Assembly: GCA_022497155.1 (NCBI GenBank)
Contig: MU385722.1
Coordinates: 868,001-932,000 of the forward strand
Reading direction: 5' to 3'
DNA length: 64,000 bases
Origin: Whalleya microplaca
Lineage: Eukaryota; Ascomycota; Sordariomycetes; Xylariales; Xylariaceae
Each line of letters opens with the position of its first letter. The stretch's first letter is position 1. The notes under the pieces are model-generated. The model did no database searches. It was not told where the DNA came from and worked only from the letters and a program-made list of their open reading frames with translations. A program made the translations under genes and the position numbers. Positions 1 through 57,200 of the stretch are shown piece after piece.

Positions 1-3000
1 GGGGGCATCGGATTTCAGAACAAGAGCGTAAAATAAGAAGCCTAGTCAGGGCCGGTAGCAGCACTGTAGGGAAAGCTCCCGCGTAGGCCGCGATATCAAA
101 GTAGCCTATGGTGCATCGGTTATATGGTCTGGATCAAGCGTGCGTGACGTTGGGTATGACTGGCACTGGCTCTATCAAAGCATCATATGTTGAGAGTAGA
201 GGGAGGTGTCTAATATCTAGTTGTCAATGTAGTAGTAGGCTACATGCTGCTTGCGGGCTTGGACGAATTATCTAGTCACATGTGTTTTTTTTAAGCATGT
301 GGCAGATATATGTGGCATCGGCTGGTTTGATGTTGTCACCATTAGCAATTGGAAGCCTTTATCAGACGTTGGTCGCGTGGGCTGGTTCCCGTCGCCGGTC
401 GTGTGAGGATAGACTCATCAGGCAATGTCGGTTTCACAGAGGACGGCTTTAGTCTTATACCTACTGGGAAGTGAATCGGCCCTCGCAAAACACTGTGATT
501 ATACGTTGGCAACTTTTCTTGTGTGCTGAGAGTTCGCTGGATCTATTACGAAGTTTATTGAGAGTATATACCTGGACCTAGTACTGTCCTATCAGTCCGA
601 ATTGCGGCGCCGAGCCGAAGCTTCTATAATTATACAGGGCCTATGCCTCCTTGATGTGCGCCTTTCCCATTTAATTGCCATCGATATTTACCTACCAGAG
701 CTAGAAGCTGCCATGCCGAATATTGAAAGTGTTATCTTCTCCATGAAGACGTAGAAATCAAGTCGCCTGTGTGGGCTGAAGTACAAGACGCCAGTACGCA
801 AAGCGAGCAAAAGTACCGCACCATATGGGTAACTTCTGGTTTAATTGCTTGAATACTAATGAACAGTACATATGTCTCAAAATCAGATGGATGGTTTATC
901 TTGGACGATAATGTACGGTCTTATATGTACGTCATAACTCCCATCAGTACCTAACAAGCATGATGATTATCTATTGTCGTGGGAAGCTAGAATCGGGCGT
1001 CGGGACGTGTCCTCTGGGCAAGGTGACATATGATATATCCCAAAAGGGGGAGTATCGGTGAGTAGCTAGGCTGCTAGGCTCAAGTGAAACAGGAGCGATC
1101 CGCCCGATCATTGGTGGGTTCACGAGTGATTCGACGCATTAGGAAATCTATGTGGCCGTTGACGGATGACCTCAGGGTTGGAAATTACAGATACATGTAT
1201 GCATCTACTTTGAAGTAGGCGATGAAGTCATAGTTGACAGAGTGAGCACTACATGTTGTTTAAGCAACAAGCACAACCCTTATTAGACTAAGTTATCTGT
1301 CAGGCAGCTAGCTACCTAGGGCAGGGAATCGAATAAATTTCAAGTGCGAAAAAGGCCTCAAGGCCGTAAATATGATGGAGCGAAAAGACCGAGCCGGAAG
1401 ATATATTCCATCTTTCATATTTGAGGTATGACCGTCGTTATCAGCCACACTCAGTGTTGTTTGTTCGCGCCGCTGCAGGTACCGACGGGTCAAGCTAGCG
1501 ATGATGCCGATTACCATCCTATTGGAACCGGACCCTTGTTCGCTGGGATGCTATGTATTAACATGGGTGTCCGTGATATGTTGGTAGACGCACATGACGA
1601 CAAGTTGTGCTATGTGCCGTGTCGATCCCGAAACATTTTCTCAATCGACTATTTGATCGACGCTTCGCGGCGTTGGTGTTGCTGCTCCGATACTACATAT
1701 TACATATGTAGATGCTTTAATCCGCCGGAAGCTGAACTCCGGTTGTCCTACGCAAACTTCTCAGTAGTTGCCGAAAAGGCGGTAAAGTCATATGTCTTCC
1801 AACGCCTTATAGTCGACACAATAAAAACCGTACGGCGAAAGATGATTTCCGGCGCTCACCACATCATCACTAGCATGATGAGGGATTTGGTCTCATTATT
1901 GCGCCAGTATTTGCGAATCATCAGCAGGGCCCCAACTTTCACATTTGTGAGGATGTGATAACAGAGACCTAAAAGATGATCGCACGGCTGACGATGACGG
2001 AAAGTTTGAATGATGAGCTTACACCAAACAACATAATTTCGTCACCATTTGCTAATCTGTTTGTGCAACACTCGACGACTTCTCCAACTCTCAGACTGTA
2101 GCCACACTTGTCGTTGACAATTGACTGCATCTACATGGTATCTTGAAATAATAGGACTAGCAACTCACTACCTACTTGTGGTTAGATAAAGTACCAATAT
2201 TAGCAATGAAATACATACATAAAACGTTAGTTTTCTGACGTGGCCGTGGCTGCATGGTAAGTTGGGGCGGGTGGCTTCGCTCCTGAACATGCCTTTCGCG
2301 TACGTGCGAAATATGTAGGACTATTCAAGCCACAAGTACACAAGTTAGAGACTGAATACCTACATCCATGCATACATATACATACTTAGGTATACCTGTA
2401 TGGTTGGGGAAAAAGTGCATACCTGTCACCACAAACCTATTCAAGTAGGTAACTGTGCCGTGCTTACCAGGTGATTCTCGAGAAAGGTAAAAGAGAAATA
2501 ACAACAGTAGGTAGTAATGCCGACCTGTCCCCGTCATCGTTATCTACACGTATGCGTACCAATCTATCTCCTACATATACGGATTACCATCCATTGATAT
2601 ATGTAAATCAAACTGGATTTGAGATGGTCGAGACGCAACTCCGGACTAGCCCTCGTCGTCTCATTGATTGGCTGCCAACTTTCTAAGCCCTGACACATAC
2701 TTAACAGGCTCAACTCTGTGGAGTATACTCCTGACTCCCCACACCTTCTCCAGAGATACCAACATGCATACATATATCGAGGGGATAGCTTAGCTATTGT
2801 GCAGCTGCAACAGCGAAATATTTACCCGACGATAGAGCAACACTAACACCACGCCATCATCACCTGTTGTCGGCTTTGATTCGCGGCCAGGCGGGATCGC
2901 ATTTCCTATATCTACCTAGGTAGGTTAGTTACATTCCCATATCTACATATAGCTCACCAGAGGAAGACGCCATCCACCATCCCACGACGATAACCATAAT

Positions 3001-4298: not shown

Positions 4299-4826
4299 AT
4301 GAATTACGCAGACGAGCTCATGGGGACCAGCCCCGACTCGCCTACGGGCCACAATATCGATTTCGCATTGCAGAAGTATCTACTGCTACAGAACCAACAT
4401 GAGGAGCTTCGACGCTACATGCAGGACCTCTGCCCTGCTTATACCGCATCGTCGACCGCCGTCACCTCTCCCTCGGTCTCGCCAACCCGGTCGTATACCA
4501 GCCTCTCCTCGCCCAAACTTTCGCCCTCGCCATCACGGAACCACCGAAGATCGTCCCACGGCTATACGACGACGAACTCGGGCTTCCGCTGTCCGCACAG
4601 CCAGCTCGAGCCGGTGCTGGACGAGTCGCTGATCGAGGAGATGGCGGTCGGCGAGCAGAAGCTCTCGGACGTGAATGAGGGCATCAAGCGAGCGCTGACG
4701 GAGCTGCTCAACTGCGAGACGGTGCGCAAGGACCGGACGATGAGGACATGGGTGCAGATGCGGTTGATGGACACGGAAAAAGAGCTCCGTAGCGGGCGGA
4801 GACGGCGAAGCCACACCAGCGACTAA
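4299..4826 (+). CDS. Small conserved fungal protein of unknown function
   Basis: This is a single-exon gene for a 175-residue protein. I chose the ATG at 4299 because the protein there begins with a compact, well-formed segment (MNYADEL, then a helix-prone FALQKYLLLQNQHEELRRY stretch). An in-frame ATG at 4242 would add 19 residues. The middle (about residues 45-90) is a Ser/Thr/Pro-rich low-complexity linker with many SP and TP sites, suggesting a phosphorylated, disordered region. The C-terminal third is again helical and charged and ends in a run of arginines (SGRRRRSH). No catalytic motif or signal peptide is visible. The layout resembles small Sordariomycete proteins annotated only as hypothetical; no function is proposed. 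Confidence 0.7.
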   Translation: MNYADELMGTSPDSPTGHNIDFALQKYLLLQNQHEELRRYMQDLCPAYTASSTAVTSPSVSPTRSYTSLSSPKLSPSPSRNHRRSSHGYTTTNSGFRCPHSQLEPVLDESLIEEMAVGEQKLSDVNEGIKRALTELLNCETVRKDRTMRTWVQMRLMDTEKELRSGRRRRSHTSD

Positions 4827-6169
4827 GCTGAAGATTGAATACCGAGGAGAATGCTGTTTGAGTCTTGTTCGGCCAGGAGGAGGGGGGAGAGGGAGAAGGA
4901 AAAGCATTAGATGGGGGGAGACGCCGGTGTCCTGGCTCGGTTTTGGGAATTACTATTCTGGGTCGTTGGGCTTGGGATCACACTTGATACCTATTTGATT
5001 TAACGGCGTTGGAGGTTATCTGGATGATTGCTATCTGTCCCATCCATTCGTATTGGTCAATGCCGAGCGAGGATGGCAGGGAAAGCAGCAAAGAAACTAA
5101 TTTGGTTGTCGTTGGACTGACAGCAAGCAAGGATACTTATTCATAATAGCCGCTCATCCATGAGGAAGGACGAGGAAGAGGGCGAGGAAGAGGGCCGGGA
5201 TGAGGCCGCGGCGAGTCGAGCCTCGAAGAAGCTCTTTCGTTTGTATATGCTTACATGAGGTTGAGCGAGTACTATCTGTGTATACGTACATACCTTCGTA
5301 CCATGAGTCTGACTAGGTAAATAATACACATTGAACACGATATATCTCTAGGTATTGTGCAGTTGTATAATGATCGTTGATACGGATACCTGAACATTGT
5401 TCCTGCCAGGGGAACCTTACATGTATTAAACATAAACATTTAACATGCCTTACATATTAGAAGCATGTGCTTCCTGTGCATTTGAACTGTATGCGTTATG
5501 TATGTACCTTATGATGGAACAGTAAGGGAGGTGACCTAGCGCTGCTGGCGGACATGTATGTACATACATAGACTTCAAGGGCATTAAAAAATTGAAGCGA
5601 TGAGCGCCAACATACGATGATGCAATTGAGAGATTTCAGGTCTCATCCACCGCGGACAACATGGGCCGGTTTGGTCGGTCACCAGTCTGTTTGTACATGT
5701 ACATATATCTACGTAATATTACCTAGGTACATATATAGCAATGTTCGCGATTTAAAGGTAGTAGAAACATGTACCTTTCCTTAGGCCAGGGGACGTGGAG
5801 CTGCACCGGCTCAAGATGCTGCTTTACGGAATTGTACGGCAATTACATAATCGCATAACGGAAGATGCTCTAAAAAGATCCGCTGTGGCGTTCAACCTTA
5901 CCTAACAGTACGGAGTACTTAATGTTGTAGGTACGCATATGTACATATCGATAGTACATAAACTGATAGGTACATACATGTAGCTTCGTTACCATACGTA
6001 CATAGGCATCTGAATCAAATCTCATCATCTTCCAACTACCAACGTACATAGTTACGGAGGTCGCCGACTCACCTCAGCCTCGTAGTGTGATTCGTATTCT
6101 CATCTCTCATTCTCAGACCAATGCGACTCGAGGTTCCTACGGCGGATATCTCTCTTACTGTAGAAAAGA
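4827..6169. other. Intergenic region
   Basis: This stretch holds the 3' flank of the small conserved gene and the promoter of the cyclophilin gene. It is AT-rich with many GTACAT/ATGTAC palindromes and a CCTAGG palindrome near 5723. I see no supported gene. Confidence 0.6.
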
Positions 6170-7722
6170 ATGTCGGTGCTGCTTGAGACCAGCGCAGGCG
6201 ACCTCGTGATCGATCTGCTTGTCGACTACGCGCCCAAGGAATGCGAGAAGTAAGAACCCCGTTATTTTATTGATAGACGACAGTCCTCGGGTAGTTTGTC
6301 TTCCGTGCCGATTTCTAACACCGTGACAGCTTCCTTAAGCTCTGCAAGACCAAATACTACAACTTCTCCCCCGTCCATTCTATCCAGCAGAACTTCTCCT
6401 TCCAGACCGGCGATCCCCTGGGCCCGACCTCCGCTGCCTCAGATGGCGGCTCCTCCATATGGGGTCTCATCTCCGGCCCCTCCAAGAAGACCTTTCCCGC
6501 TACCTTTCATCCCAAGCTGAGGCATGTCGAGAGAGGTACCGTGTCCATGGCCACCGCGCCACACCCTTCCGACCCTGATGTGCGCGTCGCCGGCAGCCAG
6601 TTCATTGTCACGTTGGGCGACAACACGGACTACCTGGATGGCAAGGCCGCCATATTCGGCAGGATTGTGGAAGGCTTTGATGCGCTGGAGAAGATCAACA
6701 CTGCCATTACCGACAAAGACGGCAATCCGCTTGTCGATATTCGGATCAAGCATACCATCATCATTGACGACCCCTATCCCGATACCCCCGGCCTGCGCGA
6801 GCCCAGCCAGTCGCCCCAGCCCTCGAAGGCTCAGCTCGCTACCGTGCGAATCGCAGACGATGCTACCTTGGCCGAAGAGGTGGACGAGGAGGCCGCCGAG
6901 AGGGTACGGCGCGAGAGGGAGGCCCGCGCCCAGGCCTTGACGCTGGAGATGATGGGCGACCTGCCCTTCGCCGAGGTCAGGCCCCCGGAGAACGTACTCT
7001 TTGTGTGCAAGCTCAATCCCGTAACCACGGACGCCGACCTCGAACTTATCTTCAGCCGCTTCGGTACTATTCTGTCCTGCGAAGTGATACGGGATAAGAA
7101 GACGGGAGACAGTCTACAGTATGCCTTCATCGAATTTGAAGATAAGAGCGCGTGCGAGGCTGCATATTTCAAGATGCAGGGCGTCCTCATCGACGACCGG
7201 AGAATACATGTCGATTTTAGCCAGAGTGTCAGCAAGCTGGCCGAAGTCTGGAGAGGCGGGGAGAACGCGAAGCGGAAACGAAAGCACGAAGGCGGTGGAT
7301 GGGGTGGTGTCAGGGGGCTAGAGAAGTGGAGGAAATACAAAGAGGACGTCCGCGACGACACGGATGACCACTACAGCATGGTCTACGGGGACGAGGAAAT
7401 GCGTGGCCGGCACGAGAGACAAGGGGTGGCCAGAGATTCGGATGATAGACGAGGCCGAGATCCAGATCGTGGGGGTCACGGGGGTCGCGGTGCTGGAGAT
7501 CGAGACCGGCGGAGGGATGGCCCCGGCCGTGATTGGGATAGAGCATCAAGTCCCCGAAGCCGAAGCCCGAGAAGAGACAAGCACCGCGACAGAGATCGGT
7601 ACGATGACAGCCGTAGAGCCGGTCGTGCGAGTGGCCGGCAGGATGATCAGCATCGAAGGGATCGAGATAGAGATAGGGATCGCAACCGGGATAGGGGCTA
7701 CGGAGACTACCGACGAAGATAG
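6170..7722 (+). CDS. cyp6: Peptidyl-prolyl cis-trans isomerase-like 4 (cyclophilin-RRM protein)
   Basis: The protein has 490 residues from two exons (6170-6249 and 6330-7722) joined across an 80-nt GT-AG intron with matching phase. Residues 1 to about 175 form a cyclophilin domain of the PPIL4 class, opening with [16 protein letters not shown] and carrying the usual FQTGDP and [11 protein letters not shown] segments. Residues 249-326 form an RNA-recognition motif with RNP2 (LFVCKL) and RNP1 (QYAFIEFE). The tail is rich in Arg, Asp and Ser, as in RNA-processing factors. Family knowledge places PPIL4/Cyp6 in the nucleus with the spliceosome or RNA polymerase II machinery. PPIL4 cyclophilins often lack canonical active-site residues, so isomerase activity is uncertain. 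Length and domain order fit the family and the gene looks intact. Confidence 0.93.
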
Positions 7723-27499: not shown

Positions 27500-30400
27500 C
27501 TAGAACCTCGCGCTGGTCTTCCTCCGGGACTTTCCCACTGCCTGACTCCAGCTAGAGGTCGAAGTAGATGTAGACGGCGACAGGGATTGGCTCTGAGAGG
27601 CCGAAAGAAACCGTCGCTTCTTCGGTGGCTGAGATCCTATTGGCCCCGTCGAGCGTCTCGTAATGTGACGTGTACTATCTATCTTCTTGTCCACCCATCC
27701 ACCGCCCCTCGGTATGCTACTTGACTTGGGTGAATAATTCTCATCAACCTCGTCGTCCGCATAGCTCTCGCTATAGACTGGTTCCGAATCCGAGGATAAT
27801 TCAACAACCTGGCTTCCGGGTGGAATTGAGAACTGCGACGATCGCGGCTTGGGCAACCTCCGTTTTCGAATCGGAGGGGGGGAGATCCTGACCCCGGTCG
27901 ATGGGTGTGGACTGGTTGAAGACTCTTTGATGAAGACATTCTCATCGTCTTCCAGAATTCCATCAAGGCTCCTCTGGGCCTTTGTTTTGAACGTATCCGT
28001 GACCCTGGATGAACTATCGCGATCGTCTGAGAAATCTTCCAATTTTCGCATCGCCTCCTCATACTCTGTGTCCTTCCGAGCTTGAGACTTTCCTGGTCTG
28101 TTTACAGACTCGGATTGGGATTGCGACTTGGACGGGCTTTGGGTCTTAAGTGACGTGCGTGCTGTGCACCAAATAGTGTTAAGCGAGCATAACGAGCCAG
28201 GTGTAGATGGAGCTGGCGATGATGCTGCACCTGGCCTACCTCTCGTTTCCCCCTGCTGAACATTCATGTCTGTCTGGCGAGCGGGCGTAGTTGTAGGAGT
28301 TGGCATGTCCTCATCAGATTCTCGGTCTTCTTGCTTTTCGGTACCAAGAATCACAGAAACACCATCGAAGACATCATCATCCGTGGTCTTGAGTGACTCT
28401 GGGTCTCCAACGTTCATGTCTAATCCTGAATAATCCATCTGACGCCCACTGCGGGCACTGCTTGCTGAAGACGGAACTGTCTTTGTAGGTTTTACAGCTC
28501 TGGGAGTACCGGAGATGACTTCGTCACCATTGCTGAAAACTGGGTCTGATGACTGGTTGACACGAACATCCTGCGAATTTGTGACCATAGAGTCGAGGTT
28601 ATTAGGTTCACCTTCCCAATCATCTCTTGGGGCAAAGCGCTCTTGTGCAAAGGGCCCTTGAGATAATGCACCTGTAGCCTGACTAGTATCTTGGTGAAGT
28701 TGTCGGGATGGGCTGCTGACTCCTGATAAATCAGACATTGACAGCTCAGTTGCTTGCCGACCTTGGCCTGGTTGGTGATGTCCAGAACTGCCCGCAGCAT
28801 CAGCCATGACTCCCCTGTTAAAATCTTCCGTTGATTCCTTCATTGGCTCCTCAGTGACTATAGGTGACCCTTTTCCCAAGAGATCGGTTCCCGTGGGTAG
28901 CGCTGATTGTTCCTGAACTTCTCTCTCGGGAGAAGAAAGCCGTGACTCGTCTCTACCGCAGTTGTTGGTTTGTGCGTCCTCGGGTTCGTCAGGGGGCAGT
29001 GGCTGTTGAAGCACTCTAGGTTGTTGCATTTCAGCAAACCCAATTGTCCGATATCCCTCATCATCTTCTTCATCACCGTCTTCCTCACCAAGGTCCGGGG
29101 CCTCAAATCTGTCGTAGATTCGCTGACCGGTATGTTCATCATATCTCTTTGGGTTTCCATCTAGGTACCGATCCCGCTTTGCGAGACACACTTCCAAGCC
29201 GGTAGCATCGTCGTCAATCCTGACCACGACGCCTGTCACATCAGAAAGCTGTGGTTGCCAATTGGTTGCTGAAGAGCAAGACCACTTCTGCCAAGTAATT
29301 ACCATTCCAACTTGAGCTTCCCCAGGACGAAGAGCTGGAAGGGTCGACAGGTCTGATGGCAAAGATGGAAGATCATCCAGATCTGTAAATTGGCTGGTTT
29401 CATTGGTAGGCTCGTTAACTGCGCCATCGTCGCCATCGTCGCCGTCGTCGTCGTAATTGAGCTGGATATCGGTGTCATGCATACTATCATCGATGCCGTT
29501 GAATGTATCATTGTATCCACTATATCTCTCCTCCCAGCTCACGGACTCGTCGTACTTCCTCTTGGTACCGGCATAAGTATCCTGGTAATAATGGGCTTGG
29601 TTCCGTTGAGCTTTCTTGCCTTGACCACCGCGCTTGTGTTTCTTCTGGAACGAGGGGCCTTGCTGTTGAGGATCCCACCGTTGAACGAATGGGAATGGTG
29701 GTTCACTGAGTTCTACCCCTTCATAGCAACATTCTACAGCTCGATACTTGATTTTCTCTCTCCATGCATCAGGATCATTAGTCGGTCGTTCGCCATCTCC
29801 CTCTGTCTGCTTTGTATTCTCATCATCTTGCTTAAGTCGCGCATTTGCTATCGGCCGAACGCCGCTCATAAGCTTTGCTCGGAGTGCATCTTCATCTTCT
29901 TTGGTCTTCGGATTGCGAAGGCCGAGTGCACCAAATAGCAGTCTACGACCTGCGCCCAGGTCTATCCGACGTCTTTTCCCAGTGGATACAGACGACTGGG
30001 CATCCTGGTCTAAACTTGTCTCGTTGGGAGTCTCTTCTGGCGCATTCGGATTTCTGGGTTCATATAGTTGATCGTGCTTTCGTTTCGTCCCGGTTGATGT
30101 GTTGGATGTGTCGCAGGGCTGCTCGAGCTGACTCGAAGGGCCTACTTCCACCCCACCATTAGCAATCGCATCTAGCAAAGCTTGACGCTTAGCCTCGAAA
30201 AGAGCTTTCTCGCTAGTGACAGTAGAAGCAGAGAGCTGATCTCTCGCGCTCATGGCGGACGTGTCGTCCGCATGACCGCCTTGCTGTGCCAGCTTCTTAG
30301 CATGCTTGGCCGCCCTCCGGCGAGCATTCCGACTCTTCGTGTTCTGTTTACCAGCTCCAGGTGGGACTGGCTGAGGTTGACTGACTGCCTTTAGTGGCAT

Positions 30401-32412
30401 TGCGAGTGAACGTGCCTGCGGCGCTTGCTCTGCTGATGAGCCTTGCACCGCCTGTGACTTGGATAGTATTTTGCGACTCGACGACGATTTCACCTCTATG
30501 TCATCACTTTCTGACTCTGAGCTAGACGCAGCTTCACTGCTCTCGTCCTCGGAGCTACTCTCAGAGCTATCTTCAGAAGATGATGTAGTATCACTATCGG
30601 AAGGACCTTCGCTGTGGTCATTCTCATTCAAGTCGTCTTGCTTAGTAGAGCCCTTACTCTGGACGCTCGGTCGCGAGCTTCCAAGCTTTTGCGGCCTGGT
30701 AGACGATTCTTCTGGACCGCTATCGCTATCCTCACTGCTATCATCACTCGAACTATCTGAGTCCCCAGCTACGTGGCGCCGCGATTGAGAAAAGTCGTTA
30801 CTCTCCGAGTCATTATCATCGTCGCTAGTGCTGTCGTCCAAAGACTCGCCCCCAATAGACGATCCATCATCATCACTCTCAGATGTTTCATCCTCCGAAC
30901 TAGAGCTCGTGCCACTGCTCGAGGTCGTGTCGGCTTTGTCGGCTTCCTTGCTAAGGCTGGCCTTGCTACCTTTCACGGTCATAGAAGCGGCCTCACTCTT
31001 GCCGCCAATTTTACTGCTCGTAAAGGAACCAGATATGGCAGCCATCTGCGCGAGCCCCTTACCCGAAGTAATGGACCCAGGAGGAAGACCACGGTAATCG
31101 AATTGTCGCACGAGGTCCGGCACCTCTTCCTGATATTCGCCGTCGGACTCTTCCTCGTTAGGTCCTTCGATGTGGGGATCATCGTCTGCGGGCTTAGCCG
31201 GAGCTGTATCGTTCGCTGGAGGCCTACTTCGAAGAGCCTTAGATTTTGTCGAGACAGAGCTACTCAAGTTAGGCCAGGCCAACAGTTCAGACTCGGAGAG
31301 ACTTGGCGGAAAGCCTTCGGCCAAGCGTCGGTATGATGTCTTCAGATCACCCGCGGAGTTTGACAGGACTTTCTCACACACAACGGCGGGCGTCTTGGGA
31401 AAGGCAGCCTGCAAAGCGGATGACTTGTCGAGGTCGTTCAAATTTGGAGCAGGTGCATCGAACAAAGGTGCCGAGGGTTCAGCTCCACCACCTGAAGGCT
31501 TTGTGTCGTCTTGTTCATTTTCAACTTCTAGTTCCCGAACATGTGGTTCAAAGTCTCCGCCACTGCCTAGACGCCTGCCGTTCTCCCCAAGCAATGCTGC
31601 GTTTTCTTCTTCCTCCTCTTCCAGGTCCCGAAGTTCCTGTGCGATGTCTTCATCATCTTGCATCTCCAGGTCTTCTTCAGCGTACTCGTCTGATTCAGAG
31701 TCAGCGTCGAAATTGGCCGGCTCGGCTTCCTCGCCGTAATTGTTGTCTTCCACATCGGCATCCTCAAAGCCATCTCCTATCCCGATGCTTGAAGAATCCG
31801 CACCATCTCGGGAACTCTCGCCGCTGGTGAGGAGCAACATAGGTGCGTCTTCTGCACCGTCTTCGGGCTGGTTCTGCCATCCCGTCTCATCTTGGTCGTA
31901 CGCAAGTCTACGTCGCTTCTGGGGAGGGACGCGAATGGGAGGTCGGCTCGTGGGCGGTTTGAGAAGCGGACGTCCCCAAGGAAGGCCATCGATGAGCCGT
32001 TTACCTTCGGAGGAGATCTGGTACCGGCCACTCAGCCGTCTCCGTCTGTTGTCGTCTTTGTCAAGCGTTCGAATGCTGTAGAGGAAGTAGAGAGTTAGCA
32101 AGTAGGCAAACGAGTCGGCTGAAAAAGCAAGAAAGTAGATGAGGCCTACTATAGTCGGTCATCTGTTTTGAGCACGCTCCGTACCGGCTGGTAGTGGAGG
32201 CACTCGAAACTGGTGCCGTCGTCGTCACGCAGCTCGACGGCGTAGTCCTCTAGGCCGGTCTGGCCAATCTCTAGAGGTATGACCTCGTTCACTTTCTCGA
32301 GCAGCTTCGCGACTGTCGGGTCGTTTTCAAGCATGACATTCCATAAGAGCCGGACTTCGGGGAGGCCCTCGCGGCGCACCACCAAGCGCAGCCGCATGTC
32401 CTTGTCGGCCAT
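27500..32412 (-). CDS. Large coilin-like nuclear protein
   Basis: The protein has 1,612 residues from two exons (32150-32412 and 27500-32075) joined across a 74-nt intron in phase 2. Residues 1 to about 100 form a compact ubiquitin-like domain (MRLRLVVRREGLPEVRLLW onward, ending DDRLYIRTL), as at the N terminus of coilin. Residues about 100-780 are acidic and Ser-rich with basic patches (KKRR-type localisation signals). A conserved segment lies at about 785-900 (RRRIDLGAGRRLLFGALGLR). A Tudor-like segment is at about 1005-1085, around VGMVITWQKW and TGVVVRIDDD. The C terminus is again low-complexity. Domain order suggests a Cajal-body or RNP-assembly scaffold; this is inference from architecture. 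The ATG at 32412 was preferred over one at 32475 that lies in a TACATG-like repeat. Confidence 0.8.
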
Positions 32413-47178: not shown

Positions 47179-47931
47179 CTAGTCCATTACTGCCAACTCG
47201 TCAGGCGTCGGATCTCCCAGCCCAGGTGCGATACTGACAATAATCTGATCCCCCTTTTTGAACTCAGTCATGGTCTCTGCGCAGTGCTCGGCGTGTGCAA
47301 GGCCCGTTGGGAAGCCTGTATACTCAAGTCTGACTTTCCCTCGTATTTCCTTTAGTAGTGTGTAGAAGCAATGTGAGTTGTGCCAGTCAACTGTGGTCCA
47401 CACCCTTCGGTCCTGTACGTCAGGCCGGTCCGCCATGGATGCTAGCTCACCGACCGTGAAAGTCTGCGAGGAGCTATCGTTGGAGCCGTGATAATACCAC
47501 TCCCCATTAGGACCGGGTCCCGCTTTCTCGAATAGTGCTGAGACTTCGTCGTCCCGGCAGTGCGGCGGGAGCCATGATGTCGCTAGGGAGTCGAATCTAC
47601 AACCTTGCGCCTTGGCTTCTGTAATTGTGGAGCCACACTGACATGGAGGGATTGCCGCCTTGCGAAAATGAATTCTGACGGATATGACGAGTGTGATGAG
47701 ACTATGGAGAGCCAGTGCTAGAATGATGGCCTTTGTAATCCACGACAACACTCTGGTTCGAGATCGAGAGAGGAAGACGTTGGGGTCTTCTTCATCGCTC
47801 GTTCTGGCTTCCGAGTATTCGACCTTGTCGTGTTTGGGTATGAAAGGCTCAGAGGCAGACGATGATGAGCTGTATTCATAGTCAATATTGTGTCTTCAGA
47901 TAGTTGGGGGTTAGAGAACCTACGAGCTCAT
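47179..47931 (-). CDS. UstYa-like (DUF3328) oxidative maturation protein A
   Basis: The frame is open from 47893 down to the stop at 47179. It encodes a Ser- and acid-rich N terminus (DYEYSSSSS), one membrane segment (AIILALALHSLITLVISV) and a lumenal domain with both HxxHC motifs, HNSHC and HAEHC. UstYa-like proteins are membrane-anchored and cyclise or oxidise side chains in dikaritin RiPP pathways. The start is uncertain because no ATG lies in the first part of the frame. A mini-exon 47924-47931 (ATGAGCTC) plus a 30-nt intron would give exactly 240 residues in frame, but such an intron is shorter than usual. A near-cognate ATT start at 47886 or a lost start codon are alternatives. The HxxHC spacing differs from the three neighbouring paralogues. 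Confidence 0.78.
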
Positions 47932-48883
47932 TATGAAGATACATCTATCAAAAACCCGGTCAATTCAGACTTGACTTTTCGAGTGAGAGATAGAAAGTAT
48001 AAACTAGCAGGTTTGAGAGACGGACATCGATGCCACCTCGACTCATACACAGGATATCCAAACAGCCAAATCGGGATTTGTCATTACATTTCATAAGCCG
48101 TACCACGTCTGAATGATCTGCGGATTCGAGGTCAACCTATCTCTTAACGATCAGCACGATATAAGCAACACGACGCAGCCATTGACTCAGCTACCACACG
48201 TGCATATTTACTTACTGTTACCCCTCTCCATCAAGATTCCGTATAACGTCATCAGCAATACATGACCAGGTATGTAAGCCGCCAGTGGCTGGCGCTATCG
48301 GCATCTTGTATATGCAGGTAGTCTTGTCGTGACCCTTGATATCGTGTGTACGCCCGAGCTCAAGTCGGAATACTCCAAATCAAGGTTTATTCATTGGTTC
48401 ACTAGTATCAGTGAATCACATTCACCATCAGAGAGTTCGAGACACTTACCGCTACTTGAGAGTATCTCGAATAGATCGAGATCTTCCATTTTTTACATTC
48501 CAGGATGGAGATCATGTCTTGTAAGAATGCATGTGGCGATGACGCGTAAATCACGAAACAGCCGCCTCGAAGCATAGAACATAGTCGCGCCATTTGAAAG
48601 GTAGATGCTCTAAGATAGTGTGCTCTTGTGAAGCTTGTAGGAGCTATGTAGTTGATGGGCATTCTTTGATCGTCTACGTTGATTTTCTGCACGTGGCTGC
48701 AAGATCTTTTACTTGGGAAGCATGGCATACTCATGTATAGATAGGAACTGAAAGTCGTAGATGCAAACGAGGGAATTCATGTCTTCCATGAGTACTACTA
48801 CTGGAGATATCGTTCCATTGCCATTCCAACCCGCCTAATTGGCAGTAACATGTGTATGCCCCCATGAATGTAGTCTTCGAGAA
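47932..48883. other. Intergenic region
   Basis: This stretch holds the promoter of UstYa A and the 3' flank of the RiPP precursor. Short frames on both strands show no motif. No gene or repeat is supported. Confidence 0.55.
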
Positions 48884-49165
48884 TTACTCTTCGTTCACAG
48901 CCTCATACTCGGAGGCAGAACCGTATTTCGGATAATCATTTGTGCGCTTCTTGTTGTTCACGGCCTCGTATTCAGACGCCGAGCCGTACTTGGGGTAGTC
49001 GTTGGTGCGTTTCTCATTGTTCACAGCCTCATATTCGGAGGCAGAGCCGTACTTTGGATAGTCGTTGGTCCTCTTGTCCATGTTGGCGTTGGAGCCGTGG
49101 GTGGCAGGCGCGGCGACAGCAAGGCTCGCAAAGGTGAGGATCATGGCAGTAGTGAACTTGACCAT
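48884..49165 (-). CDS. Dikaritin-type RiPP precursor with three Kex2-bounded repeats
   Basis: This single exon encodes 93 residues. Residues 1-18 form a signal peptide (MVKFTTAMILTFASLAVA) with a likely cleavage before AP. A short spacer leads to three tandem 21-residue units beginning at Lys31, Lys52 and Lys73. Each opens with the dibasic Kex2 site KR followed by TNDYPKYGSASEYEAVN; only the last two residues of each unit vary. A secreted, kexin-cleaved, repeated Tyr-containing peptide next to UstYa-like genes is the hallmark of ustiloxin, phomopsin and asperipin precursors. The cross-linked residues are unknown; Tyr at unit positions 6, 9 and 15 are candidates. The peptide does not match the cores of those named products as I know them. 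The gene is intact, with no intron. Confidence 0.88.
   Translation of the reverse strand: MVKFTTAMILTFASLAVAAPATHGSNANMDKRTNDYPKYGSASEYEAVNNEKRTNDYPKYGSASEYEAVNNKKRTNDYPKYGSASEYEAVNEE
48887..49075 (-). repeat. Three tandem 63-bp coding repeats
   Basis: The units are 49013-49075, 48950-49012 and 48887-48949. The encoded 19-residue stretch from Lys-Arg through Asn is the same in all three, although the DNA differs by roughly 12 to 17 positions between units (counted by eye), nearly all at third codon positions. Confidence 0.9.
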
Positions 49166-49879
49166 TGTGTTATTTTGATACTAAAGGCTGTTAAGAAACT
49201 GTGACCGATGACTCAAGTATCAGGTAATGTACCGTTCTCAGACAAGTTGAGAGGAGTAAAAGTAAGAGTGTATGTAGGTAATGGAGTAACTTTGGTGTGT
49301 TGTTTGGATTGACTTTGGGGCGGTTTCTCTAAGCTTTTATGTGAAATGATGGTAGACAGTCTCGAGTTTTCGTAGTAGTATAGGTGGTATCTCACACCGA
49401 CTTGGAGGGAAGATATTCTATCCAAACTCGGCAAAGGGGGGATAGTCAGATTCAGGATATCAGGTCCGGCCCCGACATACGCTTCGATCTCGTGCATTAT
49501 ACACAAGACAGTAGTCGAGTCAAAAGATCTGGACCGAAACAGATCAAATCAAGAGAAGATCACCCAGCCATAGATTGCTTCTCCGCGGATTACGTACCAT
49601 ACACCGAATCTCTCCAGGCCGACATACATATGGTATGTGGGTGTGGATCGTGAGGGGGTCCGAACACGGACGTGATACTACAGGATTGCTTCGCATCCAA
49701 TGTTGCTAATCTATACTAGAAATTGGTTGCCCGAAGGCGTTGCGTCGGTTATTTCATTTATCGTGTCCTTGTGTTGTATTCTTATAACCGCCCCTATCTT
49801 CTTTTCGTTCCTCGCTTCTCTTCCCGCACACATTCGTCCTCTTATGCCCATCCCTAAAGGATTGCATATTTAAAACATC
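49166..49879. promoter_or_regulatory. Divergent promoter region of precursor and UstYa B
   Basis: The precursor (minus strand) and UstYa B (plus strand) start about 0.7 kb apart and face away from each other, a layout that allows shared control. I could not pick out a clear palindromic operator. No gene is supported. Confidence 0.45.
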
Positions 49880-51145
49880 ATGAGATCTCTGATTGAAATT
49901 AGTAAGAGTTTGTTCTGGCAACCCCAGACTTACTCGGCTATCTCACCCAAAACTCTAGAAGAATCTTCACGAACTTCAGAGGAAGATACGCTAGACGGCC
50001 AGGATTGTGACGGTCTCCTAACTGGAAATCAAGTACACCATCCTCTGTGTCATCCACGTGGCCGTTTGGGTGCTGTCACCATTGTTATCGCGATATGTAC
50101 TTTAGCCCTCACTTCAGTGGGGGCTTTCTTCATTGGGCAAGAGTGGCAGCCTGGCTTGGATGAGAAGTGTATGAGGCATACCTCAACCTACTGTTCGTCG
50201 TGAAGAAACTCTTATCGCCTAATTGACACTGACGTGGTCTAGCAACTGTGATGGATCAAGTTAGTAACGAGCTACACGACGTCCGGTTTAATGGTACGGG
50301 TCGAAGCTTTTACATTCCTATATATCAAGCTTATTATTTGAATAGGTACTCTTGGGAAAAATTCCGAGTTTTCAGGTATGTTACGAACAGCATGAGTATA
50401 TATCCGGAATCTTGGTTGACTGTCAATGGTGTAGGACACTGGGGCGATCCCAATGATGAAATGGACGCCAACTGGAATTATTGGGGCTTTGGTAGGTTTG
50501 GTTCGTGGTGCTAATGAGACCTCATCATGAATTTTCCCTCTGATGGAATTTAGTTAAATACGCCTCCTTCTCTCCTGAAGAATTTGAGGCCATGGGATTC
50601 GACTTGGAAGGCAGCGCTAGATTTAGTGAGGAAACCGATGGTAAAGGCGGTTATATCGGTTTCTTAGAAATAAGCCATCAAATGCACGTACGTTACTTAG
50701 CAGAGTCATCCTCCTTCTTTTATGTTCGACTGACAGTTAATAGTGCCTCAACGTGATTCGGCAAGCATACCATAGGGAATATTACGAACGCCCAGAGAAT
50801 AAACATTGGGCTACCTGGATGAACGACAGACCTATCACTGTCAAAGTGCATATCAGTAAGCACCTGCTTTTCTTTTGAAATCACGGAGATTTTAGTCCGC
50901 TGACGGATTTAGATCATTGTTTCGAAATGATCAGACAACTTTTCATGTGCAGAGCGGATCTCGGTGTGATCCCGCATCATTGGGTGAAAGACCTCGATTC
51001 GCCGTACGCAGACTTTAATAGAATACACCGGTGCAGAAAGCTCGACGATGTGAACGATTGGATACACGAGCATGAGGTGCCTACTCCGCCGGGCGGAGAG
51101 TTTCCCATACCAAAAGATGCGAAGATTTGGCCGAAACCACCGTAG
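49880..51145 (+). CDS. UstYa-like (DUF3328) oxidative maturation protein B
   Basis: The protein has 346 residues from five exons: 49880-50192, 50243-50491, 50554-50687, 50744-50855 and 50913-51145. Introns are 50-62 nt and all phases match. It has a cytosolic N terminus, one membrane segment at about 63-84 (LGAVTIVIAICTLALTSVG), a WNYWGFG-containing lumenal domain, HQMHC at 229-233 and HINHC at 268-272. The first motif is split by an intron between its second His and its Cys. Family members act in the secretory pathway, where the precursor passes, and catalyse Tyr-linked oxidative cyclisation. It has the longest N terminus and C terminus (about 75 residues past the last motif) of the four copies here. 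It appears intact. Confidence 0.9.
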
Positions 51146-51917
51146 ATAGCTGTCATAAAAGTAATGCCACAATTACGAGCTTGCAACTGCGTCTTGCATT
51201 CCATGATGGTAGCTATTGAACTTGAAGTTGATCATGTAATTTGTCTGATGAAGTTGGGATATGGATGGGGAGAAAAGGGGGGAAAGAGGTGATTAGGTGA
51301 TCAAAGAGCATGGAAATTGTAATCACCTTAGTTAGGACATATGTACCTACGTATTTATCTAGGTACTTTTTGTATGTGTATGCAATTGACAGAAATTCGA
51401 GATTTTTCAGACTTATTCCGTACTTGTATCAATTCTACGGATTTTCTATTGCCTGTTGTTAACCCTTATACAAAAGAGTCTTTGAACATCCTCGGCACTT
51501 TCTTGTTATGCAAGCCCTTCCAAATATTTGCAAATAAAAAAGAAACAGGTCAGAGATCGTCAAGTTATGAGGAGGTAATATTGAAAGTCTGACTGAAAAT
51601 GCATGCAACTTTCCATTATGTATGCTGTATGCATTTACGGACCTGAGGTCAATAGCTCTCTCTACTTTATGATAAACATCTACCTGTAGCATCGTGGTGG
51701 CTGAAAACTTCTGCATACCCGTCCTTGATCTTACCTGCATGACCATTAATGCAAGGGAATACCGCGGGGTATGCGGAGCTTACATTGGAACACAGATGGC
51801 ATTCACATTCGTCGGGATCTGAACTTCATTCTTGGAAATCTCACATTCTAAAGTGTACTGACTAATTACTTATCATGGAAATACTCACGGATGTAAACAA
51901 AATCATCATCACTATTA
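51146..51917. other. Intergenic region between convergent genes
   Basis: This stretch separates the 3' ends of UstYa B and UstYa C. The AT-rich sequence has a CTAGGTAC palindrome near 51360. No gene is supported. Confidence 0.55.
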
Positions 51918-52758
51918 TCATGGAAATACAGAATCATCACCGACCGCTGCCGCTTTAACCGGGACGGGCTCTGACTGCAGCACATAGTCATATAGTAAAG
52001 TAGCATTGCGACATTGATGTTCGTGTCCCATTCCGTTAATCACGTCTTCCTCCTTGCTACCGGGCCCTAGCACCTTGATTGACTTTTCTAATGAATCATC
52101 AGCTGAACAGAGAATACCCTGTGAGCTGATGTGTTAGTGTCATATCTATTCGGAGAAGATCGCTAAGTACCTGAATGAGGTAGTCGAAGCAGTGAAGCCA
52201 GTGATCGCGATCTTCTGCACTCTCACTCTCCTTCACACCATGACTCTCATCTCGGATGTGACCCATGTGCATTTCTCCTCCCAAGAGCATCGATCGGCTA
52301 TCCATGAGTAAGCTTCTAGATAGCTATTGGTTGTGGGAGACTCACATCATGCTAAGACAATGGAGCTGATGAAACATTGAAACGCCATACTTGGCTATCT
52401 CACGATTCTTCTCCTCCACTATCAGGAAACCTCCGTTCGGAGTCAGCAGCGAGTCCCACCAGTCGCTTTTCTGCGGCATCACACTCCCGTTACCGTATGC
52501 GGGATACTTCCAAGGATCCTTGACGAATTTAACAGGGGAGAGCTTCTGTGATGGCTTTGGGGTGGTACAATCCTTGACCTCTGTTTGGGAACTGCCGACG
52601 GCCAAAGCAGAAGCGCAAGATCCCATTCGCACATCGTCGACAAACGAAGTGATTATGTTATCATGACCTGGCCGGATGAGGACGAGAAGCGTTATGACGG
52701 TTATGGCCGAAGTGAAACACACGACAAGGCACGTGCGGACTGTGGCTGATCCTATCAT
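51918..52758 (-). CDS. UstYa-like (DUF3328) oxidative maturation protein C
   Basis: The protein has 246 residues from three exons (52346-52758, 52171-52297 and 51918-52118) with introns of 48 and 52 nt. It has a very short cytosolic tail and a membrane segment at about 8-28 (RTCLVVCFTSAITVITLLVL). The first motif, HQLHC, is at 130-134, followed by LSMIRSMLLGG. The second motif, HWLHC, is at 170-174, followed by FDYLIQGILC and a C-terminal GHEHQC segment at about 221-226. This is the classic UstYa layout with all histidines and cysteines present. It is divergent from UstYa D across a 386-bp shared promoter, suggesting co-expression. It is probably an oxidase or cyclase for the precursor; which step it performs cannot be read from sequence. 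Confidence 0.9.
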
Positions 52759-53144
52759 TTTGGCATGTGAAACAGACGATCGCAAGTGGTAGGGTTGTGA
52801 TAATGAAAGCGAATGGGTAAATCGATGGAAGTGGTCTCGAGGAAGTCCTCTTCGGACTTTAAACCTTTACCTATCTCACGACGAACGTCATGTCTCTACA
52901 TGCTGCTACTACTACTGGTTGTGAATAACATGCATATGAGCATGTATGAATCAGCTCACCCGACCCACCATCGTAGAATATTGTAAACCACAGAACGCCT
53001 CATACGACTGTTCTCAGCTAGCCTGCTATCGGAAGAGGTGTCGCGAGGACGATCGTCGTTTTCCAATACCCCTTGTTGCCCACTTGAACGAGAAAACTCA
53101 GTATTCTTTTAGTCTTCTTTAACCGTAATCTCACCTCGGACGTT
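52759..53144. promoter_or_regulatory. Shared divergent promoter of UstYa C and D
   Basis: This is 386 bp between two start codons that face away from each other. It contains a perfect inverted repeat, AAGTCC-TCTTC-GGACTT (52843-52859), about 85 nt upstream of UstYa C, a form expected of a dimeric Zn2Cys6 regulator site. Function is inferred from position and symmetry only. Confidence 0.5.
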
Positions 53145-54003
53145 ATGCTCGAATCAATCTCAGAGAATGAGGCCTTCTTGCCTAATGAAGAGGAAGTTCA
53201 GCATCTTGAATATCAGGGTGACCCAACGAGCAGGCCGCTATTGGCCGCCGTCGCCTTAATCAGTACATTGATTTCTATTGTAGCAACTGTGATTGTTCTC
53301 GATATTCTTCTCATATCTCCCTCAACATCCAACATAGGCCCATATCTACTTCCATCCTCGAGCATCCCACCACTGGGAAACGTCGTTCGAACCTTCGAAG
53401 GCCAATCCATCTACTACTCTCAAGATTTCAATACGAGCCGCGAGGCATGGATGTCACTATTTCCTCGTACGTCCTCGTGGCAGATTCCCCGTGGTCGATA
53501 CTGATCATGCCATATCTTAGCTGGAATGGGGTACGTGTCCATGGATAGAATCAAAAACGTGGGTGACATCCCACGCTTATTTCAAGACATGACCACGGAT
53601 GGCTCAGGACGTTTCTGCGTCGCTGCGTTCCACCAACTTCACTGCCTCGTAAGCCCAACCCTCATGTCTTTTGACGTCCATGTAGGTGCGCAAGCTAGAT
53701 AGGTTAAACATATATCAGTTCCTCATCTACGAAGACTTCCACCGCGCCATGAGCGGCGAGCTGTCGCACACGGATACGCAGTCATTGCAGAGTTCGCACT
53801 CACTGCACTGCTTTGATTATCTCCGTGAAAGCCTCATGTGTACCGCAGACAATAATTTGGAACCCTTCCTCCCCGGTACGAAAGGGAACGGCGTGGACGG
53901 ATTTGGAAGTGCGCACCAGTGCCGCGATTTTCAAGAGCTTTTCAGGTGGAGCGAGAAGTTTAGGTATACTGACGGTCACGACGCGGAACACTTTGAGGGC
54001 TGA
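53145..54003 (+). CDS. UstYa-like (DUF3328) oxidative maturation protein D
   Basis: The protein has 255 residues from three exons: 53145-53466, 53521-53648 and 53686-54003. It has an acidic cytosolic tail, a membrane segment at about 31-57 (PLLAAVALISTLISIVATVI), a PGMGYVSM segment, HQLHC at 145-149 and HSLHC at 188-192. A FDYLRESLMC stretch and a HQCRDF segment follow. All UstYa hallmarks are present. The second intron is only 37 nt, yet it is needed to keep the frame after the first HxxHC motif. UstYa C and D are more alike in motif order and C terminus than either is to A or B, suggesting a duplication. It probably acts on the Kex2-released peptide in the secretory pathway. Confidence 0.9.
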
Positions 54004-54273: not shown

Positions 54274-57200
54274 TTACTCCTTATTTATTTCATTTTCCAA
54301 ACTCAGATCACTCCGTAAGGCTATCAAGTCGCCAATCGCCGTCATTGTTGTGCCTCCCATGATGTCAAAGATAGCCACATTGGCTTGAAAGTCATTGCCA
54401 ATCCAGTTCCGCAATTCAACAGCCATTAGCGAGTCAACCCCGTAATCAGAGAGATATTTATCAACGTCAATATCATCCGGTGATATCGATAACGCGCGTG
54501 TTAACTTTGATACCAAGGCCTTTACGACAATATCAGCGCGCTCTTTCATTCCCGTGGCCTGTCTAAATAGTGCCCCTACATCCACGATGTCGTGCCCACC
54601 AGAACCATGTCCCCCGTTGCCAGCCGCGTTAGTAAAGCCAGAGAATAACCGCCGCTGCCCAAAAGTAGGAACAGGCTGGCCCTTCGCAAGGAGGTGTGCC
54701 GGTGTGACTACCCCAATAAGCAGCTGGCTGAGCTAGACTTGTACATGGGAGTCCCATGGGACTCCCACCAATTCCCATGGGAAATGATGGGACTCCCATG
54801 TAAGTCCCACGCTAGTAGTGGGACTCCCACGAAATTTCCCTCCCACCAAAAAGTCCCATGGGAATCCCATGGGAAATATTAATAAAAAATTCATTTTTTA
54901 ATTTTATTTGCGACCGAAAAAAAAAATTGTATTTTTAATAAAACTAAAAAAATTTTTAAAAAATAAATTTTAATTTTATATTAATATTATTAATATAAAA
55001 TCCCGGAAATATTTTTTAATTAATTTAAATTAAATAAAATAAAATAAAAAATAAAAATATTTAAATATTTAAAATTATAATTTTATATTAATTTTATAAT
55101 TTATATATTAATATTATTATATAATAAAAATGAAATAATCGCGAAATAATCGGTTATATAAAATATATATTATATTTAATTTTATAAATTATATATATAT
55201 TAATATTAAAAATTAATTTAAATATAATATAATATAAAAATTAAATATTTTATATTTATTTAATTAAATTTATAAAAAATTATTATATTATTTTTATTTT
55301 ATTTTATTTTTATTTTATTTTATAATATAAAATAAAATAACTTTTTTTAAAATTTATATTATATTATATAAAATAAAATAAAAATTTTAATAATATAATT
55401 TTATCGGTTGGTAATAAAATTAAATAAAATTAATTTTTTTAATAAAATTTCTATAAAGTTTTTTTTTTAAAAAAATAATTTTTTTAAAAATACAGTTTTA
55501 TCGGTCGGCGATGGGACTAAATGGGACTGATTTTTTTTCGTGGGAGTCCCATGGGACTCCCATGGGAAAAAAAAATTCCCATGGGAGTCCCACGGGACTA
55601 TGGGACCAACCCCGTGGGTGGGACTTGTACAGGTCTAGCTGGCTCTCTTCTGGACGAAGTATTGGTAATGTTGGATCGCAGTATAAGTCTAAGAGCGCCA
55701 TGAAGTCTTCGTCTTCTATCTGACCGATAGATGTAACGTTTTGTTGGCGTTGCTGGAATTTTTCTGTCTCGGCTATAATTCCAATAGTCCGCATCCAACC
55801 AATATCGAAGGAAACGGCTTTCTGACCATGTCTTGTTCTGTGGTAGCACAAAGAGTCCTGGAAGACACACCCAGCGGAATAATTTGACTGCGCAGCATTT
55901 CCATAAATTCCATCCAGAGATGAGAGCATGATAAAGAAGTCGAGTGTCCTCGGAAGTAGTTCGTGTAAGTTCCATGCTGTATGTGCCTTGGACCTTATCG
56001 TAAGGTCCCATTGTGCATGTGTCATATTGTGAAAAACTGCATCCTAAATGGTTGATATCATCAGTCTATAGTGTCATCTTATATCTCAGTGAGGTTAACC
56101 TACCTGAAGTACCATTGCAGCGTTAATGCAACCTCGGATAGGAGGCATTTCACTACTACAGCTATTCAGCATAGCGGATAACGAACTTGCCGAAGACACG
56201 TCACAAGCAGGAGTCACGACGGTGACGCCTTGCTCCCTAAGCTCCGAAACCAAATTAGCTGCTGCCATTGAATTGACACCCCCGGAACGCGATGGCACGA
56301 TTAGATATCGTGCCCCTTTACTCGCTAACCATCGCAGAATTGCCCTACCAATACCACCTGACCCCCCAGCAATCAAATAGGAAGCGTCTCTGTAGCACCT
56401 CCATTGGCTACAATTTAGAATCCGTTTCTGGATGAGATCAAGATATATCAGCTTCTTGCATTTGGATGACGAATGCCGCGGCTAAGAGAACCACGACTTA
56501 CCTTGACAACATCAGAATCATTAATAGTTATGATGGTTCGCCCAGAATTTTTACCGCTTTGCATGAAGCGGAACGCTCGTTCTACTTCTGAGACAGGGTA
56601 ACGATGTAGAGGACTTGGATGATCAATGTGCCCCTGAGAAACCAAGTCCATCACTTGGTGTACCATCTCGGCCTCCAGAGATCGATTGGATAGAGCCAGA
56701 TGGTAGAGATCTACCGCAAAAAAGCTCACGTTTCTGGCAAAGCCTGACATTGGTAAAGATGAATTCCCCATAATGTCGGCCTTTCCAATTTCGATAAACC
56801 TCCCGTAAGGAGCCATACATTCCCAAGATGCGCGCAAGCCGTCCCCTGATAGCGAGTTCAATACCACGTCTACGCCATAGCCGTTAGTAACCCGCATGAT
56901 CCCTCGGGCAAACGACGTATCGCGGCTATGGAATATATTTTCTTCAAGTATGCCATATTTGTCGACCAAAAGCTGCCTTTTCTCGTCGAACCCGACCGTA
57001 GCGAAAATTTCAGCGCCTACCATTTTAGCAAACTGCAATGCCATCTGGCCGGTACTTCCAGCGGCCGAGTGTATCAAGATCTTTTCTCCCTTCTGAAGTT
57101 GAGCAACCTTAATCAGGGAATAGTACGCCGTAACGCCTGGCGTAATAAAAGAAGCCGCAACTTCGAACGACATACTATCCGGGATCTTGATCACCTGATC

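Follow-up and report, generated by a model that had tools for sequence, protein, structure and literature searches.

A candidate dikaritin-like RiPP cluster in Whalleya microplaca with a new repeat core and a divergent double-HxxHC protein as its putative recurrent partner

The genome of the ascomycete Whalleya microplaca (Xylariales) comprises 48.1 Mb in 114 contigs. Here, we analysed a stretch of 64,000 nucleotides of contig C13 (MU385722.1), at C13:868001-932000, which we call the window and whose positions are used below unless another contig is named. Within 7 kb of the window, four genes for proteins with two HxxHC motifs each (genes A to D) lie around a gene for a repeat peptide precursor. 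The precursor has 93 amino acids and is encoded on the minus strand at 48887..49165, within an open reading frame (ORF) at 48884-49180 that has its start codon at 49165 and its stop codon at 48884-48886. Gene A, which encodes a divergent double-HxxHC protein, lies downstream of the precursor on the same strand (47179..47931; exon 1 47924-47931, exon 2 47179-47869). Its N-terminus agrees with that of the annotated protein P0008, and the product is 100% identical to the annotated F5B20DRAFT_536495 across the aligned 97%. The original prediction of a precursor with Kex2-bounded repeats between UstYa-like genes was borne out by the ORF, by its three units preceded by Lys-Arg (KR) and by its position between genes A and B. 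We propose, with a probability of about 0.7, that the locus encodes a dikaritin-like pathway for a ribosomally synthesized and post-translationally modified peptide (RiPP), with a new core and with a divergent UstYa-like protein as the recurrent partner of the precursor.

The precursor begins with a signal-like N-terminal segment, which was judged by eye, and continues with three KR-preceded units TNDYPKYGSASEYEAVN with the two-residue tails NE, NK and EE. Tandem Repeats Finder independently reported a 63-base array with 2.8 copies and 79% matches, whose score of 235 was the highest of 23 rows for the window. Pairwise comparison across the 17 codons that the units have in common showed differences at 7, 7 and 13 of 51 bases, every one of them silent and in the third codon position. 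Since only 33 of the 153 possible single changes in one unit (22%) would be silent, this pattern suggests that the peptide is under constraint and speaks against a recent duplication of the DNA. We then scanned 3145 six-frame ORFs from the window and from 19 further 9.9-kb stretches of the genome for KR-separated repeats. Six matches were obtained: the precursor itself, a low-complexity protein encoded at 27503-32158 of the window, and four proteins from UstYa loci elsewhere in the genome. No second precursor of the same family was detected in the W. microplaca genome, where the single match was the window's own, and an Rfam scan of the window gave no match at the gathering score.

Relatives of the precursor were found in Hypoxylon, Annulohypoxylon, Xylaria, Rhypophila, Trichoderma and Trichoglossum. 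A search with the single sequence returned two proteins, while a search with an alignment returned at least seven, those two included (Trichoderma sp. SZMC 28011, Hypoxylon sp. NC0597, Xylaria polymorpha, Rhypophila sp. PSN 637, Trichoglossum hirsutum and two more); because the latter search was limited to the 7990 candidates with the largest numbers of shared words, the relative counts are lower bounds. When the window precursor and its relatives were split at KR, each of the 24 intact units that follow a KR had T1, N2, Y4 and Y7. This count excludes first units that have no KR before them, and six of 30 KR-preceded pieces were set aside by eye (two leader, one terminal, one truncated and two spliced). 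Position 13 varies between Y, F and T, and the Trichoglossum units retain TNDYPGY and differ in the remainder. The first unit of P0001 and of P0003 comes straight after the signal-like segment and again starts at T1, which suggests that T1 is the N-terminus of the repeat unit. The pattern is consistent with TNxYxxY as the core and the remainder of the unit as a recognition part. The expectation that this core differs from the known ones also held, as an exact-string literature search with six core strings, with supplementary tables outside its range, found no paper with a match. Among the matches listed in broader literature searches no description of the precursor was found, and 'ndyp' as a word start, checked for the Trichoderma match, had zero occurrences in the accessible text of PMC7099791. 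The precursor may already be listed, as an unnamed type of Kex2-processed repeat peptide (KEP), in the tables of a survey that was accessible in part (PMC7329392).

Among the nine other precursors, the window's own being excluded, we found four linked to gene A. In Rhypophila sp. PSN 637, gene A and the precursor carry consecutive locus tags (V8F33_012884 and V8F33_012885) on contigs of equal size, and P0001 and P0021 are both on contigs of 103531 bases. In Annulohypoxylon stygium (F5Y02DRAFT_431716) and Xylaria telfairii (F4803DRAFT_576682), single gene models fuse the repeats with gene A, in the same order as in the window. The public models P0010 and P0019 join the precursor to gene A from inside the last repeat; these fusions are probably annotation merges, and a shared transcript is possible. 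A precursor found alone in many fungi, with no UstYa neighbours, had been named in the original prediction as a case that would speak against it, and no such case was seen where the genomic context is visible, in four of the nine. Taken together, the recurrent linkage of precursor and gene A is the strongest functional evidence that the sequences provide.

The protein encoded by gene A carries the motifs HNSHC and HAEHC at a spacing of 24 residues, inside the range of 22-54 observed in UstYa ORFs of the W. microplaca genome. Such a pair arose once in 200000 shuffles of the gene A sequence, and in the window plus the 19 stretches it was present in 8 of 1378 real ORFs versus 1 of 27560 shuffled ones. 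A search with gene A collected 23 proteins including the window's own, 20 of which were aligned (P0016, P0017 and P0023 were left out); both motifs are present in gene A and in 18 of the 19 aligned relatives. Six of the 20 alignment members score weakly against the UstYa model PF11807, the best with an E-value of 0.037, below the Pfam cut-off of 25 bits. When the gene A family was compared as a profile with seven UstYa proteins of the same genome, the motifs came into register with a score of 35.6 (probability 43%, E 2.5e-4), which was higher than the score of every one of 100 column-shuffled controls (at most 22.1) and of the reversed control (15.0). The AlphaFold model of gene A has a mean predicted local distance difference test score of 80.1 and a predicted template modelling score of 0.67, with an N-terminal helix at residues 40-75. 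The two motifs, at 166-170 and 195-199, are located within separate helices (163-179 and 192-204), resembling in the model the binuclear copper site of DUF3328 enzymes as described in the accessible part of PMC12435403. A structure search with a UstYa ORF gave a single weak and unrelated match (E 0.61). Overall, gene A likely works like a UstYa.

The three other double-HxxHC genes belong to the UstYa/DUF3328 family. Gene B is on the plus strand at 49880..51145 with seven exons (49880-50192, 50243-50293, 50346-50375, 50435-50491, 50554-50687, 50744-50855 and 50913-51145 with the stop codon) and encodes HQMHC and HINHC. Gene C, on the minus strand at 51918..52758, has three exons (52346-52758, 52171-52315 and 51918-52118 with the stop codon) and the motifs HQLHC and HWLHC. 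Gene D, with HQLHC and HSLHC, is on the plus strand at 53145..54003 and also has three exons (53145-53466, 53521-53648 and 53686-54003), the third with alternative in-frame starts at 53695 and 53719; it was not part of our UstYa alignment A3. Introns and splice sites of all four genes were placed by eye from the sequence. The spliced genes B, C and D scored 147.3, 64.4 and 87.5 bits against PF11807. Thus, the claim of four UstYa-type genes in 7 kb stands when they are counted by the double HxxHC motif, and it falls to three when they are counted by PF11807, with gene A outside. The locus combines a secretory-type precursor bearing a Kex2-bounded repeated core with the UstYa/DUF3328 proteins B, C and D, and proteins of this family are the class-defining enzymes of dikaritins in the accessible part of PMC12048977. 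An older five-gene definition described there includes a tyrosinase, a methyltransferase, a transporter and a peptidase, and clusters without one or more of them have been reported. Ten further ORFs at 47-54 kb did not match any Pfam family at E<=0.01, and methyltransferase matches were met only inside the neighbouring polyketide synthase, with no dedicated methyltransferase search made.

We propose that the precursor enters the secretory pathway, where membrane-anchored HxxHC copper oxidases, gene A first and B to D perhaps, would oxidise the still-joined repeats. Kex2 would then cleave after KR, and exopeptidases would trim the products. The modified part would be the N-terminal TNxYxxY, in which Tyr4 and Tyr7 would probably be oxidised or cross-linked; the remaining residues of the unit, (E/D)(Y/F)EAxN-like in most relatives, would serve in recognition. 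Gene A, which was seen together with the precursor in other fungi, is the most plausible enzyme for the initial oxidation, and B to D may add further oxidations in W. microplaca. The computed linear [M+H]+ values are 900.410 for TNDYPKY, 1044.463 for TNDYPKYGS and 2150.915 for TNDYPKYGSASEYEAVNNE, and each oxidative cross-link would lower the mass by 2.016.

Several observations weigh against this pathway. For the other five of the nine precursors (P0002, P0003, P0004, P0006 and P0007), no gene A relative on a contig of the same size was present among the matches listed, and 18 of 22 gene A relatives had no precursor among them. Equal size is the only sign that one of the pairs shares a contig, and the two fused models may have arisen by merging during annotation. 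Gene A appears as the precursor's partner in the four cases above. For genes B, C and D the neighbourhood covered was that of the window, and they perhaps act on the precursor peptide. No tyrosinase was found on contig C13 (none of 18 PF00264 matches in the genome), in line with the absence of one from the window that had been noted originally. A genome-wide search for major facilitator superfamily transporters scored 9 of 561 candidates, and the ten further ORFs at 47-54 kb are without a Pfam match, as given above. As for gene A itself, it has no Pfam match at E<=1 and lies outside PF11807, and one aligned relative, P0029, carries neither motif. When the motif columns were masked, the profile score fell from 35.6 to 12.8, under the best shuffled scores, so at the level of sequence the likeness to UstYa is that of the motif pair, with no profile similarity beyond it. 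No solved structure was matched by sequence in the PDB, and Foldseek returned none at E<=0.001.

The gaps in Pfam, profile and structure matches would be expected if gene A were not an oxidase and had gained its HxxHC pair by convergence, its role being that of a membrane partner that helps the precursor as a chaperone, in processing or in immunity. We regard this as improbable, given that the motifs are retained in 18 of the 19 aligned relatives and lie on separate helices as in CctR (PMC12435403, accessible part), that their spacing falls within the UstYa range and that some alignment members show the weak PF11807 scores given above. A similarly small chance is assigned to an unmodified KEP, such as a secreted signal, in place of a RiPP. 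Repeats can stay conserved for signalling, and 78% of the 7878 KEPs in the accessible survey data have no DUF3328 among the 15 nearest genes (PMC7329392); here, however, three PF11807 proteins and gene A lie within 7 kb, the units have a constant pair of Tyr residues, and an unmodified peptide fits less well with a recurrent double-HxxHC partner. Somewhat more weight, though still on the unlikely side, goes to a pathway that consists of the precursor and gene A as a whole, with B, C and D adjacent by chance and serving a reducing polyketide synthase (PKS; ~54.3-62.2 kb of the window) or a reductase resembling a non-ribosomal peptide synthetase (~42-44.7 kb). Elsewhere gene A alone was seen with the precursor, the context of B to D being outside the data, and DUF3328 enzymes also act outside RiPPs, as CctR hydroxylates the non-ribosomal peptide cyclochlorotine in the accessible part of PMC12435403. 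Moreover, gene D ends ~270 bases from the last open frame of the PKS. Against this, gene B adjoins the precursor on the side opposite A, with the start of gene D 4 kb off, and in the accessible part of PMC7329392 the counts of DUF3328 genes peak at the position adjoining repeat-precursor genes. Further, a service of B to D to the PKS is less likely because a multicopy AT-rich element interrupts the PKS frame between its ketoreductase and acyl carrier protein parts, which makes a working PKS doubtful unless the element is spliced out.

The AT-rich block lies at 54740-55560 of the window and is flanked by GGGACTCCCATGGG-type palindromic repeats. It matched 113 pieces of the genome, and at least 11 copies lie no more than 5.3 kb from the end of a contig, several of them near 3 kb; the other copies are internal or on contigs without a determined end distance. 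This distribution suggests a subtelomeric element, and no TTAGGG array was found in the six contig ends examined. Contig C13 ends ~16-22 kb away from the RiPP cluster itself. Just past the window end, at C13 933127-934513 on the minus strand (1127-2513 of stretch L039), two open frames resemble one cytochrome P450, and the first of them (1127-1855) matches Pfam p450.

The window cluster is one of several in the genome, because four of the 18 other UstYa stretches hold KR-separated repeat precursors with different units (L014 on C63, L018 on C23, L023 on C4 and L025 on C78). The C23 unit occurs in two exact copies and one variant, and the C4 locus also has tyrosinase matches, at C4:541270-541981, which make its set a fuller, ustiloxin-like one. 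A paralogue of gene A was identified on contig C36 (stretch L012, C36:384500-394400), with 40% identity over part of the protein, two HxxHC motifs and no Pfam match. About 2.1 kb away, in divergent orientation, a repeat protein is encoded that looks secreted and has seven PPVNALVIP-like units, with no Tyr in the repeats; the divergent pair spans 1877-2278 (minus) and 4424-5188 (plus) of the stretch, followed by a TauD-family dioxygenase at 5786-6994. This repeat has two KR sites only, was not flagged by the KR scan and was found by eye, so the second pairing is no more than suggestive. We tentatively consider that gene A may represent a further family of HxxHC copper oxidases that lies outside Pfam's DUF3328 and whose members accompany repeat precursors across ascomycetes, in W. 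microplaca both the TNxYxxY precursor and the Tyr-free one on C36; the odds are somewhat against it. If this is true, RiPP mining keyed to DUF3328 misses pathways that use only that family.

To our knowledge, few fungal dikaritin-type pathways have known products. Similar to the dikaritins ustiloxin, phomopsin and asperipin-2a, the cluster of the window has a secreted-looking precursor, KR-bounded repeats with Tyr in the repeat, and double-HxxHC proteins. In contrast to them, it has no tyrosinase on its contig, and its recurrent partner is divergent and outside PF11807. The TNDYPKY core also matches none of the cores of these three, and YAIG/YVIG and FYYTGY are among the dikaritin cores. Phomopsin has YVIPID in the accessible part of PMC7099791. 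In the accessible part of the KEP survey (PMC7329392), 1758 of 7878 KEPs (22%) have DUF3328 among the 15 nearest genes, and these share the general architecture of the window cluster. A repeat precursor with DUF3328 neighbours is thus a known kind, and the core is new. Repeat precursors with any DUF3328 neighbour have 1.7 of them on average in that survey, with five for phomopsin and one for asperipin-2a, so that a count of four is not unusual. The several cross-links that the original prediction drew from four oxidative proteins are conjectural. The idea that four UstYa genes are exceptional was dropped, since phomopsin has five. The neighbour counts of the survey are based on the DUF3328 profile, whereas the present PF11807 model misses gene A. 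Should gene A prove to be an oxidase, then searches of genomes with DUF3328 models have been blind to part of fungal RiPP diversity. CctR, as described in the accessible part of PMC12435403, is a DUF3328 member with a non-ribosomal peptide substrate, unlike gene A, which is below the Pfam cut-off and similar in its motifs only. CctR binds two coppers per monomer and requires the HxxHC(x)nHxxHC motif, and the model of gene A shares with it a predicted N-terminal membrane helix and HxxHC(x)nHxxHC on helices. With a precursor that several genera share and a partner gene that can be identified, the locus offers a testable minimal two-gene system beside these known ones.

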